From a bacterium (GTDB taxonomy: Bacteria > Bacillota > Sulfobacillia > UBA995), in assembly GCA_031082145.1 (NCBI GenBank), contig JAVHLP010000002.1:1-33203 (forward strand): a DNA stretch of 33,203 bases, in the 5' to 3' direction. A program made the position numbers and the translations under genes. A model generated the notes under the pieces. That model did not search any database. It was not told the DNA's origin and saw only the letters and a program-made list of their open reading frames with translations. Below are positions 5,984 to 12,021 of the stretch, in pieces (the first letter of the stretch is position 1; every line of letters begins with the position of its first letter).

Positions 5984-8467
5984 ATGCCGAGTCACTACAT
6001 GTTCGGGAGGTATACGGAGAGAGCCCAGCGGGCCATTATCCTGGCCCAGGAAGAGGCCAGGCGCCACAACCACGCCGTCGTCGGCACCGAGCACCTGCTC
6101 CTGGGGTTGATCCGGGAGGGCGAGGGAGTGGCCGCCAAGGTTCTTCAGAGCATGGGGATTGGTCTGGAGAAAGTCAGGACCGAGGTGGAGAACATAATCG
6201 GCGGGGGAGAGCCCGAGACGGCCGGGGAGAGTCTCAATTTCTCCCCTCGGGCAAAGAAAGTCGTCATGGAACTGGCTCTGCTGGAGGCGCAGGCCCTGGG
6301 ACACAACTACATCGGCACCGAGCACCTCCTACTGGGACTGCTGCGCGAGGGAGAGGGAGTGGCGGCCAAAGTCCTCGAGAGCCTGGGAGCCGATCTGGAG
6401 AAGACCCGTTCCCAGGTCATGCAGCTTCTCGGCAGCCCCGCCGGCGGCGCCCAGCCCCCCGGCCCCGGGGCGGCGGGCGGAGCCCGGCGGGCTCGCAGCA
6501 AGACGCCAACGCTGGATAGTTTCGGGCGGGATCTCTCCCTGCTGGCCAGGGACGGTAAGCTCGATCCGGTCATCGGCAGGGAGAAGGAGATTGAGCGGGT
6601 CGTGCAGATTCTCTCCCGTCGCACCAAGAACAACCCGGTCCTGATCGGGGAGCCGGGCGTGGGCAAGACCGCCATTGTTGAGGGTTTGGCCCAGCGGATC
6701 GTGGCCGGCCAGGTGCCCGAAACACTGAAAGACCGGAGGGTGGTCACCTTGGACCTGGCTTCCGTGGTTGCCGGGTCGAAGTACCGGGGTGAGTTCGAGG
6801 AGCGCCTCAAGAAGGTGACGGACGAGATCCGGAATACCGGCGAGATCGTCCTCTTCATTGATGAGATGCATACCATCATCGGGGCAGGGGCGGCCGAGGG
6901 CGCCATCGACGCCTCCAACATTCTGAAGCCCGCGCTGGCCCGTGGGGAGTTACAGTGTATAGGCGCCACCACCCTTGACGAGTACCGCAAGCACGTGGAG
7001 AAAGATCCTGCCTTGGAGCGGCGGTTCCAACCCATCATGGTTGACGAACCCCCGGTGGAGGAAGCACTGGCCATCCTCAGGGGGCTACGGGACCGCTACG
7101 AGGCTCATCACCGGGTGGAGATCACCGACGAAGCACTTGATGCCGCGACGCGGCTGGCGGATCGTTACGTGGCCGACCGCTTCCTCCCCGACAAGGCCAT
7201 CGATCTGGTCGACGAGGCGGCCTCTCGGGTGCGCCTGCGCACTTTCACCGCTCCCCCTCACCTTAAAGAGTTGGAGGAGAAGCTGGAGGCCGTCCGCAAG
7301 GAGAAAGAGGCGGCGGTATCGGCTCAGGAGTTCGAGAAAGCCGCTCGCCTGAGAGACCAGGAACACAAGATGAAGAGCGAGCTGGAGGAGGAGCGCTCTC
7401 GCTGGCAGCAGCGGCAGGTGACCGACAAGCCGGTAGTCACCGCCGAAGACATCGCTTACATCGTGTCCAGCTGGACCGGAGTCCCGGTCACCAAGCTGGC
7501 TGAGGCCGAGACGGACCGGCTCTTGCGGCTCGAGGACGTCCTGCACGAGAAGATGATCAACCAGGATGAAGCGGTCCGAGCGGTGGCCCGGGCCATCCGC
7601 CGGGCCAGATCGGGCCTGAAGGACCCCCGGCGCCCGGTCGGATCCTTCATATTCCTGGGGCCTTCCGGGGTGGGCAAGACTTACCTCGGCAAGGCGCTGG
7701 CCGAGGCCTTGTTTGGCAACGAGGAAGCCATGGTCAGAGTCGACATGTCAGAGTACATGGAGCGGCACAACGTCTCCCGCCTGGTTGGAGCTCCTCCGGG
7801 CTACATCGGCTATGATGAAGGAGGGCAGTTGACCGAGGCGGTCCGGCGCAAGCCGTACTCCGTAGTGCTGCTGGACGAGATCGAGAAAGCGCACCCGGAA
7901 GCCTTCAACATCCTGCTGCAAATCCTCGAGGATGGCCGGCTTACCGACTCCCAGGGCAGGGTTGTCGACTTCAAGAACACCGTGGTGATCATGACCGCCA
8001 ACGTCGGCGTGCAGCTCCTCAAGAAGGATACGGCTATCGGTTTCCGAGCCACCCCGGACGAGTCGGGCGACTACGAAGCCATGAAGGAGAAAGTGCTGGG
8101 TGAACTCAAGCGGACCTTCCGCCCGGAGTTCCTGAACCGGATAGACGAGATCATCGTCTTCCGGCAGCTCTCTGACCAGCATCTGGGCAGGATCGTGGAC
8201 CTTATGCTGGCCGAAGTTGCCTCCCGGCTCAAGGAGAACCAGTTGGTGCTGGAAGTGACCCCGGCCGCGCGGGATCGGCTGGCCCGGGAAGGCGCCGATC
8301 CGCTGTATGGAGCGCGACCACTGCGGCGGTCGATCCGCCGGCTGGTGGAGGATCCGATGTCGGAGGAGCTTCTGAAAGGCACTTTCAGTCCCGGTGCCAC
8401 GGTGGTGGTGGACTTCCAGGACGAGGGCTTCACTTTCAAGGCCAGCAGCCAGACTCCCGCCGGCTGA
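5984..8467 (+). CDS. clpC: ClpC, AAA+ unfoldase of the Clp protease
   Basis: An 827-residue Hsp100 ATPase that unfolds substrates, including phosphoarginine-tagged proteins, and feeds them to ClpP. Two Clp-N repeats (about 5-70 and 80-148) each carry a GTEHLLLGL block; a Pro/Gly/Ala linker follows (151-168). NBD1 has Walker A GEPGVGKT (222-229), Walker [10 protein letters not shown] and a [11 protein letters not shown] sensor region. The middle domain, with the UVR-like [21 protein letters not shown], identifies ClpC rather than ClpA or ClpB. NBD2 has [16 protein letters not shown] and LLDEIEKAH; the C-terminal domain has [16 protein letters not shown]. Full length. The ATG is preceded by GGGGAGGGGGG. 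Downstream radA, present next to clpC in Bacillus, is absent. Confidence 0.97.
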
Positions 8468-8487
8468 GCGGTTGGGGGGCTAGTAGG

Positions 8488-9567
8488 TTGGCATCAGCCG
8501 GGACTGACGAGCGATTGCTGGACACCATGCGCCGGGTGGCCCCCGGTACGCCGTTGCGGGAAGGCTTGGATAGCGTCTTGCGCGGGCGCACCGGCGCCTT
8601 GGTGGTTGTCGAGGACGGCCCCGAGATAATGGCCATGGCCGACGGGGGATTCCGGCTGGACGCGCCCTTCCACCCGTCCAGCCTATACGAGTTGGCCAAG
8701 ATGGACGGGGCGATCATCCTGTCCGAAGACGGGCAGCGCATCGTCAGGGCCAACGTGCACCTCCATCCAGACCCGGGAATATCGTCCGCCGAGACGGGGA
8801 TAAGGCACCGGGCCGCCGAGCGGGTGGCCCGCCAGACCGGTGCGCTGGTGATCGCGATCTCGGCGCGTCGCAACGTGATCTCCGTGTACCGGGGGGGACT
8901 CCGTTACCTGACACGCGATCTGGGCTACTTGCTCACCGTCGGCAACCAGGCCGTTCAGACCCTGGAGCGAACCCGTTCCTCGTTGGATCAGGCCCTGAAT
9001 GGCTTGTCCACTCTCGAGTTCGACGACCTGGTGGTTGTCGCCGACGTCGCCGGGGTCATGCAGAAGATCCACGCCACCCTGCGGGTGATGGGCGAACTGG
9101 AGCACTACGCGGCCGAACTGGGTGAAGAGGGGCGGCTGATCACCATGCAACTGGAGCGGCTGTCCAGCGGGGTCGAGGAAGAGAGCCTCCTCTGTCTCCG
9201 GGATTACTGCCCGGTGGCGGACGACGCGGGCTACCTGGAGATGTTCCGCGAACTCCGCACTCTACCGCGCGACGTGACAGGCGATCGAGCGGCCCTGGCC
9301 CGGCGCCTGGGGTTGGCCAGCGGCCCGGGAGCGCTGGAGACTCCCGTCAGTCCCCGGGGCTACCGCCTGCTGAGTCGCATTCCTCGCCTGCCCATGGGGA
9401 TCATTGAGAATCTCATCAAGCGGTACGGGGCTTTCCCGCGAATCGCGGCCGCCGGTACAGAAGACCTGGACGGGGTCGAGGGCATTGGCGAGAGCCGGGC
9501 CCAGGCTATCGTGCGGGGGTTGGCCCGCCTCCGGGAGACCTTGCGCCGCAGCCCCCAGGAGTCCTAG
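8488..9567 (+). CDS. disA: DisA, diadenylate cyclase and DNA integrity scanner
   Basis: A 359-residue protein that makes c-di-AMP from two ATP and pauses at recombination intermediates. The DAC domain (about 15-145) has the catalytic DGA motif in LAKMDGAIIL (D73-A75) and RHR in GIRHRAAERVA (106-108). A helical spine follows (about 150-290), then a C-terminal helix-hairpin-helix DNA-binding region with VEGIGESRAQAIVRGLARL. The TTG start at 8488 has a G-rich ribosome site (8473-8479) at good spacing; the first ATG in frame is at 8527 and would remove 13 residues. The gene follows clpC by 20 bases, so read-through from the ctsR promoter is likely. Its stop overlaps the stop of the convergent gene on the other strand. 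Confidence 0.95.
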   Translation: MASAGTDERLLDTMRRVAPGTPLREGLDSVLRGRTGALVVVEDGPEIMAMADGGFRLDAPFHPSSLYELAKMDGAIILSEDGQRIVRANVHLHPDPGISSAETGIRHRAAERVARQTGALVIAISARRNVISVYRGGLRYLTRDLGYLLTVGNQAVQTLERTRSSLDQALNGLSTLEFDDLVVVADVAGVMQKIHATLRVMGELEHYAAELGEEGRLITMQLERLSSGVEEESLLCLRDYCPVADDAGYLEMFRELRTLPRDVTGDRAALARRLGLASGPGALETPVSPRGYRLLSRIPRLPMGIIENLIKRYGAFPRIAAAGTEDLDGVEGIGESRAQAIVRGLARLRETLRRSPQES

Positions 9568-9959
9568 CAGAACTTGAAGATGCCCAATGCCGAAAGGCGC
9601 TGGCGCTCCTTGAGGAGGACATCATAGAGGTTGAGGCTAAGCAGGTTGCACAACCCCGCCACGTAGAAGAGGTGATTGCCCAGTTCTACCTCAACGGCTT
9701 CGAGGCAGTTCTCACAGAGCTTACCGGCGAGGTGGGTGTCCATGTGGTCGCGCAGTTCCTGCAGTGAAACGTCCTCGGGGACGCGCTGGCGGGCGGCACT
9801 TATCGTGAGACAGCCACAACTGGTGATCGACTTGGCTATTGCCCGGTTAATGCGGGCGTTCGACTCCTGCAGCTTGGTCATGACATCCAGGACGCTTCGG
9901 TGCCGGACCAGGCAGCGCTCAACGGTGTCCTGGAACTCGCTGCAGAGAAGGTCCTTCAT
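9564..9959 (-). CDS. Conserved cysteine-rich small protein, function unknown (DUF1573-annotated clostridial type)
   Basis: A 131-residue soluble protein. From memory it resembles a clostridial family sometimes annotated with DUF1573; this was not searched. It has eight cysteines (6, 16, 48, 50, 82, 85, 104, 131), with CGC at 48-50 and CENC at 82-85 as possible metal or thiol sites. The C-terminal ELGNHLFYVAGLCNLLSLNL is reminiscent of the second half of MazG-like NTP pyrophosphohydrolases, but the usual Asp after ELG is Asn and no upstream EExxE pair is clear, so enzymatic function is not claimed. The start (MKDLLCSEF) has GGAGG upstream; the frame extends 12 codons further without support. 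It has its own promoter (10000-10029) and runs opposite its neighbours, ending tail-to-tail with disA by a 4-base overlap. Confidence 0.75.
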   Translation of the reverse strand: MKDLLCSEFQDTVERCLVRHRSVLDVMTKLQESNARINRAIAKSITSCGCLTISAARQRVPEDVSLQELRDHMDTHLAGKLCENCLEAVEVELGNHLFYVAGLCNLLSLNLYDVLLKERQRLSALGIFKFC

Positions 9960-9999
9960 AGGGAAACCTCCACTCCGCCAAAGACGCCGCGTCAAGCCA

Positions 10000-10029
10000 A
10001 TTGTAACCGAGCCAAGAGCGGTCTGTCAA
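10000..10029 (-). promoter_or_regulatory. Sigma-A promoter of the cysteine-rich gene (minus strand)
   Basis: Read on the minus strand, TTGACA (10024-10029) and TACAAT (10000-10005) are 18 bases apart. Transcription would start near 9993, about 35 bases before the ATG. Confidence 0.8.
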
Positions 10030-10088
10030 TTCCAGCTGGCTCTTGTACCTGCGTCGGAGCTTGTCGACCGGATCGGCCGGGAGGTATC

Positions 10089-10164
10089 TGGTGGACGTAC
10101 CGGGACTTGAACCCGGGGCCTCCGGCTTGCGATGCCGGCGCTCTCCCAACTGAGCTATACGCCC
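10089..10164 (-). tRNA. tRNA-Ala (anticodon CGC)
   Basis: A 76-nt cloverleaf on the minus strand with GGGCGTA pairing TACGTCC, D arm GCTCAGTTGGGAGAGC, anticodon loop ATCGCAA (CGC, reading GCG) and T loop TTCAAGT, ending in an encoded CCA. The G3-U70 pair, the alanine identity element, is present. Confidence 0.95.
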
Positions 10165-10180
10165 ACGCTGTACGAGATCA

Positions 10181-10210
10181 ATTCTAACCGATGCCCCCAA
10201 CCATCGTCAA
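10181..10210 (-). promoter_or_regulatory. Sigma-A promoter of tRNA-Ala (minus strand)
   Basis: On the minus strand TTGACG (10205-10210) and TAGAAT (10181-10186) are 18 bases apart, about 17 bases before the mature tRNA 5' end. It points away from the carD promoters in the same gap. Confidence 0.75.
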
Positions 10211-10248
10211 CGTGATGCTCTCGCCGCCGACAGCCGGAGAACGCATTG

Positions 10249-10278
10249 TTGACAGGGGCTTACGGGACGTGGTAAAAT
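10249..10278 (+). promoter_or_regulatory. carD promoter P1 (sigma-A)
   Basis: TTGACA (10249-10254) and TAAAAT (10273-10278) with an 18-base spacer. It is the upstream member of a tandem pair. Confidence 0.8.
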
Positions 10279-10288
10279 CATGGTTTCC

Positions 10289-10317
10289 TTGACACCAGCT
10301 GGCTGTCGTGGTACACT
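10289..10317 (+). promoter_or_regulatory. carD promoter P2 (sigma-A)
   Basis: TTGACA (10289-10294) and TACACT (10312-10317) with a 17-base spacer. Transcription would start near 10324, almost at the ribosome binding site, so P2 mRNA would have a very short leader. Confidence 0.72.
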
Positions 10318-10337
10318 GACCGAGTGGAGGTCTCTTC

Positions 10338-10829
10338 ATGGAGGGCACTTTTGTGTTCAACGTTGGCGACAAAGTCGTCTACCCCATGCACGGAGCAGGC
10401 ATCATCGAAGCCATCGAGGAACGGGAGATCCTGGGTCAGAGGCAGCAGTACTACGTGATGCGCCTACCCATCGGCGAGATGAAGGTCATGATCCCCACCC
10501 GCAACGTTGATGGCATCGGGCTGCGTGAGGTCATCGACCACGGAGAGGTCTGCAAGGTCTTTGAGATCCTCCGCTCGCAGAAGACCAAGATGTCGACTAA
10601 CTGGAACCGGCGTTACCGCGCGAATCTCGAGAAGATCAAGAGCGGTGACATCTTCGAGGTTGCCGAAGTGGTGAGAAACCTGATTCTCCGGGACAAGGAG
10701 AAGGGACTCTCCACCGGTGAGCGGAAGATGCTCGACAACGCCAAGCAGATCCTGATCAGCGAGCTTGTTCTGGCCCAGGGCATTGATGAGACGGAAGCGA
10801 GGGACTTGCTCGAAGATCTGTTCCGCTGA
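10338..10829 (+). CDS. carD: CarD/CdnL family RNA polymerase-binding transcription factor
   Basis: A 163-residue protein of the CarD/CdnL group, which binds the beta subunit of RNA polymerase through an N-terminal Tudor-like domain (also found in TRCF) and stabilises open promoter complexes, often at rRNA promoters. The N-terminal domain (about 1-65) has FNVGDKVVYPMHGAGIIEAI (4-23) and YYVMRLPIGEMKVMIP; the rest is the helical C-terminal domain, with NWNRRYRANLEKI and LDNAKQILISEL. The ATG has GGAGG upstream. The gene has two promoters and its own terminator, so it is a single-gene unit as well as lying in this conserved cluster. Confidence 0.93.
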   Translation: MEGTFVFNVGDKVVYPMHGAGIIEAIEEREILGQRQQYYVMRLPIGEMKVMIPTRNVDGIGLREVIDHGEVCKVFEILRSQKTKMSTNWNRRYRANLEKIKSGDIFEVAEVVRNLILRDKEKGLSTGERKMLDNAKQILISELVLAQGIDETEARDLLEDLFR

Positions 10830-10941: not shown

Positions 10942-12021
10942 GTGCTGCCGCAGAAGATCTTCCGGGGAGTGCTGACCCTCGGGGGGCTAGCGGGTGGATT
11001 GGTCCTCACAGCGAAGGCCTGGGACCCGGTCCAGGATTTCCTGGGCTACCGGTTCGCTCTTTCCCCCCTCTGGCCCACTGTGGGTGGGGGTTTGCTGGTC
11101 GGAGCGGTCGCCTTTCTGGTGGCTCCGTGGATCTGGGCCGGAGTCCGGGCGACTGCCGCTTGGCTGGAGGCCCGGCTTCACCGGGCCTCGCTGCAGGAGA
11201 TACTGGCGGGGTTACTTGGTCTGATTCTAGGACTCATTGTCGCTACTTTGCTGGCTTGGCCTTTCTCGCAGGTTCCCTTAGCGGGCCGGTACCTCCCGCT
11301 TGGAGCCAGCCTGCTTCTGGGCTATCTGGGCATCAGCGTGGGTATCAAGAAGCGGGATGAGTTCGGGAACCTCCTGTTCGGCCGTCGCGACCGCGGAGGT
11401 GGCAGCGGCGGCAATAAGATCCTCGACACCAGCGTCATCATTGACGGCCGGATCGCGGATGTCTGTAGCACCGGCTTTGTCGAGGGAACCCTGATTGTAC
11501 CCTCGTTCGTGCTGGAGGAGTTGCGCCACATAGCCGACTCCCCCGATGTGCTGAAGCGAAACCGGGGGCGCAGAGGGCTTGACGTGCTGCGCCGGATCCA
11601 GACCGAGCCGGGGGTGCAGGTCCAGCTCTACGAGCGCGACGCCGGCGGCAATGCCGAAGTGGATACCAAGCTGGTCCGCCTTGCCCGGGCGCTGGGGGCC
11701 AAGATCGTCACCAACGACTTCAACCTCAACAAGGTAGCTGAACTCCACGGGGTACCCGTTCTCAACATCAACGAACTCGCGAACTCGGTGAAGCCCGTCG
11801 TCTTGCCTGGCGAGGAGATGACCGTCCACGTGATCCGGGATGGCAAGGAGTCGGGACAGGGCGTTGCCTACCTCGACGACGGCACCATGATCGTGGTGGA
11901 CGGCGGCAAGAAGCACATCGGGGAGAGCGTGGGGGTTCTGGTTACTAGCGTTCTGCAGACTGCCGCCGGTCGCATGATCTTCGCCCGCCCCAAGGCGGGC
12001 GAGAGGATGTTGGACAGCTGA
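10942..12021 (+). CDS. Membrane-anchored PIN/TRAM domain protein (YacL type)
   Basis: A 359-residue protein of the Bacillus YacL family. The first ~135 residues hold four hydrophobic segments (for example LTLGGLAGGLVLTAKAW and EILAGLLGLILGLIVATLL). A PIN nuclease-like domain follows (about 155-285) with LDTSVIIDGRIADV and IVPSFVLEELRHIAD supplying acidic metal ligands, and KIVTNDFNLNKVAELHGV. The C-terminal TRAM domain (about 295-350; GQGVAYLDDGTMIVVDGG) is a likely RNA-binding fold. Substrate unknown; an RNA-related role is inferred from PIN plus TRAM. The GTG start has a strong GAGGAGG site. It is probably co-transcribed with ispD, 23 bases downstream. Confidence 0.92.
   Translation: MLPQKIFRGVLTLGGLAGGLVLTAKAWDPVQDFLGYRFALSPLWPTVGGGLLVGAVAFLVAPWIWAGVRATAAWLEARLHRASLQEILAGLLGLILGLIVATLLAWPFSQVPLAGRYLPLGASLLLGYLGISVGIKKRDEFGNLLFGRRDRGGGSGGNKILDTSVIIDGRIADVCSTGFVEGTLIVPSFVLEELRHIADSPDVLKRNRGRRGLDVLRRIQTEPGVQVQLYERDAGGNAEVDTKLVRLARALGAKIVTNDFNLNKVAELHGVPVLNINELANSVKPVVLPGEEMTVHVIRDGKESGQGVAYLDDGTMIVVDGGKKHIGESVGVLVTSVLQTAAGRMIFARPKAGERMLDS

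Follow-up and report, generated by a model that had tools for sequence, protein, structure and literature searches.

A widely conserved gene placed antisense between the clpC-disA and carD operons encodes a predicted MazG-type fold with a four-cysteine insert

What is the function of a small gene that is read against the operons on both of its sides? The gene lies in a 33,203-nucleotide stretch of DNA, here called the window, from a bacterium of the Sulfobacillia lineage UBA995 (GenBank assembly GCA_031082145.1, contig JAVHLP010000002.1). At positions 9564..9959 on the minus strand, an open reading frame (ORF) encodes a protein of 131 residues with eight cysteines, as the original prediction described. 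It meets disA (8488..9567, plus strand; NF010009, E 6.9e-128) tail to tail. The disA stop codon TAG occupies 9565–9567 and the stop codon of the gene is the complement of 9564–9566, which gives the expected overlap, 4 nt long. On the 5' side, a divergent CarD-like gene (10338..10829, plus strand) takes its name from the original prediction and has no NCBIfam match. Next to it is the most constant 5' neighbor (10942..12021, plus strand), which we take, from gene order, to encode a PIN/TRAM-type (YacL-like) protein; its NCBIfam match is weak. In the window, disA directly follows clpC (8467–8488), and in most relatives radA intervenes. The accessible part of the literature on the neighbors of the gene, on MazG-like proteins and on pseudoenzymes yielded no paper on this gene.

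The gene is real and protein-coding, and it is under strong purifying selection. Two relatives compared at the family level (L001 and L002) differ over 131 codons at 16 first, 11 second and 58 third positions, with dN 0.11, dS 1.27 and a dN/dS of about 0.09. The concentration of the differences at third positions (58/85) and the low dN/dS indicate that the gene evolves as a protein. Together with the existence of homologues, this substitution pattern rules out a spurious reading frame. An ORF that overlaps the gene on the plus strand (9676–10110) contains in-frame stops over the shared part in the relative L003, and is therefore taken to be a shadow ORF. A Shine-Dalgarno sequence, GGAGG, is located at 9967..9971 (minus strand), 7 nt before the ATG, and similar 4-mers precede 114 of 117 genes of the family.

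The gene was initially called an orphan, a description that does not hold. Of 61 near genomes, 51 have a single-copy relative; so do 244 of the 398 that were sampled across the phylum. A named collection contributed 468 candidate stretches, 397 of which encode a relative, and 80 of these were kept for analysis; the carriers include Symbiobacterium, Tepidanaerobacter, Fervidicola, Thermincola, Thermoanaerobacterium and Clostridium. Records from a plasmid collection add Acetoanaerobium (43% identity) and Paenibacillus (41% identity). The window protein gave no match in the NCBIfam search and one sub-threshold match in Pfam. Judged by sequence similarity, the family is widely conserved, with members in Symbiobacteria, in Clostridia and as far away as Paenibacillus, and is claimed by no Pfam or NCBIfam model.

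We also considered whether the gene is mobile, plasmid-borne or part of a defense system. No match was found among 50,697 phage records and none by PADLOC, arguing against a mobile gene and a defense gene, respectively. The two plasmid records with a match are 2.63 and 2.70 Mb in size and have core operon genes around it, again arguing against a mobile gene; clpC and radA surround the match in the Acetoanaerobium record, and radA, disA and ispDF that in the Paenibacillus record. The two PLSDB records (NZ_CP154629.1 and NZ_CP054613.1; loci L251 and L252) are labeled as plasmids, yet carry core chromosomal operons. Two weak extra matches with internal stops, L157 (G218:C48:14689-14823) and L158 (G214:C97), may be decayed second copies or chance.

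Synteny was scored in 99 loci, comprising the 80 named loci, 17 further loci and the two plasmid-collection records, and the CarD-like protein of the window served as the tblastn query for CarD neighbors. On the 3' side, mcsA, mcsB, clpC, radA or disA could be scored in 95 of the 99 loci and lies on the opposite strand in all 95, confirming the antisense placement. On the 5' side, carD, PIN/TRAM or ispDF could be scored in 89 loci, and all are on the opposite strand in 86; in the three exceptions (L067, L079 and L085, Fermentithermobacillus-type), CarD alone is inverted. A match to the CarD query in L049, at a distance of 8.7 kb on the 3' side, was left out of the count. Where both sides can be scored (n=86), the neighbors include RadA in 72 loci, DisA in 50, CarD in 73 and PIN/TRAM in 85, so the gene does not always sit beside disA or carD. 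In several gene-less loci (for example L188, L192 and L194), radA or disA is followed by carD within a few hundred bases with no relative in between; other gene-less loci are truncated there or have longer gaps. These counts, together with the gene-less loci, suggest that the gene is tied to a place and not to one neighbor. The antisense slot between the clpC-(radA)-(disA) and (carD)-PIN/TRAM-ispDF operons is fixed.

A special tie to DisA had been suspected from the neighborhood in the window. Among the 398 phylum genomes, DisA is present in 150 carriers and absent from 94, and is present in 69 non-carriers and absent from 85. This association and that with SpoIVA are both formally significant, by statistics that ignore kinship. 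With 94 of 244 carriers lacking DisA, and DisA found in little more than half of the loci scorable on both sides, the gene is not a strict DisA partner.

A promoter, TTGACA-18-TACAAT, is located at 10000..10029 on the minus strand, 40 nt before the start codon, and agrees with the consensus at 11 of 12 positions with one mismatch. Between 9400 and 10400, four promoter-like sites are observed versus 0.2 expected. Among the relatives, 82 of 117 have a site that departs from the consensus at no more than one position, with a spacer of 18 in 70 and of 17 in 12. A perfect TTGACA-(16-18)-TATAAT occurs in 71 of 115 upstream regions of 200 nt each; no perfect site was seen when these regions were shuffled 20 times each. 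Across 97 loci (1.58 Mb), 57 perfect sites are upstream of the gene, versus 54 in all other places. Of these 54, about two dozen, by eye count, are on the opposite strand within approximately 340 nt of the gene start, and are probably the divergent carD promoter. Whole genomes contain between 5 and 54 perfect sites with a spacer of 17 or 18. The spacer is 18 in 50 of the 57 perfect sites at the gene, versus 25 of the 54 elsewhere; genome-wide, by eye count, spacer 18 is common in high-GC genomes and a minority in Clostridium and Thermoanaerobacterium. Thus, a strong sigma-A promoter (TTGACA-17/18-TATAAT) is conserved far beyond chance, and the gene does have the strong promoter of its own that was proposed. 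That one place, one orientation and a consensus promoter are kept across the phylum suggests that the gene likely has a basic function.

In the window, tRNA-Ala(CGC) (10089..10164, minus strand) lies just upstream of the gene, and in 20 of the 80 named loci it is found on the same strand within 250 nt. When this tRNA is nearby, the best promoter-like site tends to lie 150–170 nt upstream, suggesting that the tRNA and the gene are likely co-transcribed there, in one lineage. Upstream of the CarD-like gene, the plus strand also has two strong promoter-like sites (10249–10278 and 10289–10317), each with a TG preceding its second hexamer.

The original prediction noted a resemblance to MazG-like folds. 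An AlphaFold2 model based on 27 sequences has a mean pLDDT of 90.2, with helices at residues 2–16, 23–48, 83–106 and 111–130, and two small helices between strands 51–53 and 77–79. All 50 PDB matches listed by Foldseek are of the MazG, HisE or dCTPase/dUTPase type; the leading ones have probabilities of 0.9–1.00, and the listed matches have E values of 0.04–0.8, with none reaching 0.001. Structure comparison with VIA returned 2a3q (Z 10.4, rmsd 3.4, 99 residues) and 2a7w (Z 10.2, rmsd 1.8, 80 residues), followed by unrelated helical proteins at Z of about 8, a genuine but modest margin. The most divergent subfamily, f135, was modeled separately, with other members in the alignment (pLDDT 81.8), and again matched the MazG superfamily, at best with Z 9.7, rmsd 3.1 over 102 residues, versus 7.3 for the best unrelated protein.

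Profile comparisons gave a graded picture. With hhalign, the probability was 89% against six small MazG proteins encoded in these genomes, with residues ~46–87 mostly unpaired, 9% against a larger set of MazG N-terminal domains and 73% against the pooled set. A PDB profile search gave weak matches to YpjD and other MazG proteins, and its top row was the unrelated EscO. One divergent member, L152, matched the MazG-like PHROG 229 at E 3.2e-6. The Pfam MazG models PF03819 and PF12643 gave no match for the window protein; L059 scores 16.1 of 22 bits against PF03819 and P0002 14.5 of 27 bits against PF12643, both below the cut-off. Taken together, the two predicted models, the structure searches and the profile comparison bear out the MazG-like fold: as modeled, the protein has a MazG-type all-alpha fold, in which residues ~46–87 are a cysteine-bearing insert between helices 2 and 3. 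A canonical MazG domain is encoded by a separate gene in 24 of 25 related genomes, indicating that the gene at 9564..9959 is not the MazG of the cell.

Is the catalytic site retained? In the accessible portions of the structural reports, the Mg ligands are Glu119, Glu122, Glu138 and Asp141 in M. tuberculosis MazG (PMC10014863) and Glu35, Glu38, Glu54 and Asp57 in S. solfataricus MazG (PMC2954211), that is, two acids three residues apart on helix 2, plus a Glu and an Asp on the long helix that follows (PMC10014863, PMC2954211). hhalign pairs LQESNARINR with LTEEVGELAR and ELGN with ELGD. By this alignment, residues 32–36 (ESNAR; codons at 9852..9866, minus strand) correspond to the EExxE of MazG enzymes, and residues 92–95 (ELGN; 9675..9686, minus strand) to the ExxD. 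We scored the ligand-equivalent positions 33, 36, 92 and 95 over 117 distinct proteins. Position 33 is Glu in none (S, A, T, N and a few others), position 36 is R in 114 and K in 3, position 92 is Glu in 112, and position 95 is Asp in none (N, R, K, A, Q, S and others). As aligned, three of the four MazG Mg ligands are lost in all 117 proteins and one has become an invariant Arg/Lys, in agreement with the incomplete catalytic set of the original prediction.

In the S. solfataricus enzyme, Tyr102 and Phe103, which follow the Asp by three and four residues, are described as sandwiching the sugar (PMC2954211). At the equivalent places, Phe98 is present in 114 and Tyr99 in 116 of the 117 proteins (codons at 9663..9668, minus strand); 29 reference MazG loci have mostly L and Q there. 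A deoxyribose-specific Asn was not seen at the equivalent offset, where position 122, mapped by offset, is L, I, V or M. The ligand losses, the Arg/Lys and the retained aromatic pair suggest that the pocket has been rewired and has not merely decayed.

The eight cysteines divide evenly. Cys48, Gly49 and Cys50 (9810..9818, minus strand) and Cys82 are each present in 117 of 117 proteins, and Cys85 in 116 (one Asp); Cys82-Glu-Asn-Cys85 is encoded at 9705..9716 (minus strand). The other four cysteines are not conserved, with C6 in 68, C16 in 37, C104 in 99 and C131 in 6 of the 117. The two conserved pairs adjoin the sole strands of the model, 51–53 and 77–79, which must pair in a single chain, and the four cysteines are therefore probably close together in the predicted structure. 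They would hold a structural metal, most likely zinc, with CGC as the first half and CxxC as the second half of the proposed site.

The MazG shape, the rewired catalytic site, the added four-cysteine site and the constant backwards position suggest that the protein is probably a regulator; a role as regulator or sensor is suggested by the conserved residues and the location, and a nucleotide or redox sensing role may be envisaged. Our main reading, to which we assign a probability of about 0.35, is that the protein is a regulatory, metal-stabilized pseudo-pyrophosphohydrolase of the MazG superfamily whose binding target is a nucleotide-like ligand or a partner protein. It would no longer hydrolyze NTPs, and the four cysteines of the insert would hold a structural metal. 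The charged face of helix 2 (R19, H20, S22, D25, K29, E32, R36, R39 and K43), together with Phe98-Tyr99, would bind the nucleotide-like ligand or partner protein without a metal. Ligand-dependent binding of a partner could then make it a regulator within a locus for protein quality, DNA repair and transcription. A more far-reaching version of this reading is unlikely: a widespread, catalytically dead and metal-stabilized nucleotide sensor, expressed from a near-perfect housekeeping promoter, through which Clp proteolysis, DNA repair and control by CarD/RNA polymerase would be coupled to the nucleotide state.

Alternatively, the protein could be an adaptor or anti-adaptor for ClpC/McsB or RadA, with the MazG fold as scaffold and the charged face as docking surface. 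Its place beside mcsAB-clpC(-radA), constant in 95/95 scorable loci, is consistent with this idea, as is the behavior of f135 (L150–L154, five genomes). There most of the charged face is replaced together (R19V, H20N, D25Q, K29Q and R39Q in most or all), and the cysteines, G94 and Phe98-Tyr99 are kept, a pattern that also counts for our main reading. Nevertheless, several sampled genomes without the gene retain clpC, mcsB, radA and disA intact. The gene also has its own promoter and runs in the opposite direction, which indicates that it is not co-transcribed with the mcsAB-clpC operon. We consider an adaptor unlikely.

An enzyme that is still active through a rearranged site is also unlikely; in it, E32, E90, E92 and others would carry out a different hydrolysis or act in the oligomer only. 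E32 is present in 112 and E90 in 105 of the 117 proteins, and the retention of these two residues and E92 in most members makes an altered but active metal site possible; sites in the superfamily may assemble from swapped helices, according to the accessible portion of one report (PMC2954211). On the other hand, three of the four standard metal ligands are absent from all 117 proteins, one being replaced by Arg/Lys, and E32 and E92 are themselves altered in f135.

A regulator at the level of transcription is distinctly unlikely. In this scheme, the cysteine insert would bind nucleic acid or RNA polymerase, and the protein would act with CarD or autoregulate the intergenic region. The gene is head-to-head with carD in most loci, some of which have consensus promoters on both strands between the two genes. 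However, the search found no CarD in 13 of the 86 loci and an inverted one in three, and the Foldseek matches listed include no nucleic-acid-binding fold, an absence that is no proof. A strict sporulation gene is not favored, and a sporulation protein of any kind is improbable. SpoIVA is present in 226 of 244 carriers versus 109 of 154 non-carriers (45 lack it), in statistics that ignore kinship, but 18 carriers lack it, including 3/3 f9 genomes and three of f75, and the promoter is of the sigma-A type. It is highly improbable that the conserved part is the convergent transcript, with antisense interference with radA/disA from a consensus promoter and a secondary protein, even though the arrangement is convergent in 95/95 loci and no intrinsic-terminator-like site was found in 9400–10400, as the protein is under strong purifying selection and the gene persists in loci without an adjacent DisA or RadA.

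If the protein is a pseudo-pyrophosphohydrolase as proposed in our main reading, an NTP-cleaving fold would have been turned into a regulator, for which the locus suggests ClpC/McsB, RadA and CarD as candidate partners.

How does the family compare with known systems? A helical hairpin resembles Acb2/Tad1 (PF24729) at E 0.055–0.12, scoring 13–14 of 27 bits, below the cut-off and most likely by chance. About 23 residues around the CGC motif resemble DUF1573 (PF07610) in weak matches (best E 0.0018). We rejected this assignment because two members reach 12.7 and 13.7 bits, short of the 26.1 required, the likeness covers the CGC stretch only and the predicted fold is MazG-like. Relatives presumably carry DUF1573 protein names in NCBI. 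No literature linking DUF1573 to disA was found; for Clostridium, the accessible portions of selenoprotein reviews list a UGC form of DUF1573 that is different from this family. With the MazG superfamily (YpjD 2gta, 5ie9, DCTPP1/RS21-C6, HisE and Vibrio iMazG), the protein shares, as modeled, the helical fold over the whole chain, the ELG motif on helix 3 with an aromatic pair after it, and the C-terminal helix. Unlike MazG family proteins, it has no Pfam or NCBIfam score above the cut-off, and what is new is a widely conserved variant of a known fold that lacks a model in either database. The variant differs from the superfamily in its insert of about 40 residues with four cysteines, and from the MazG enzymes in the apparent replacement of three of the four Mg ligands, one by Arg/Lys.
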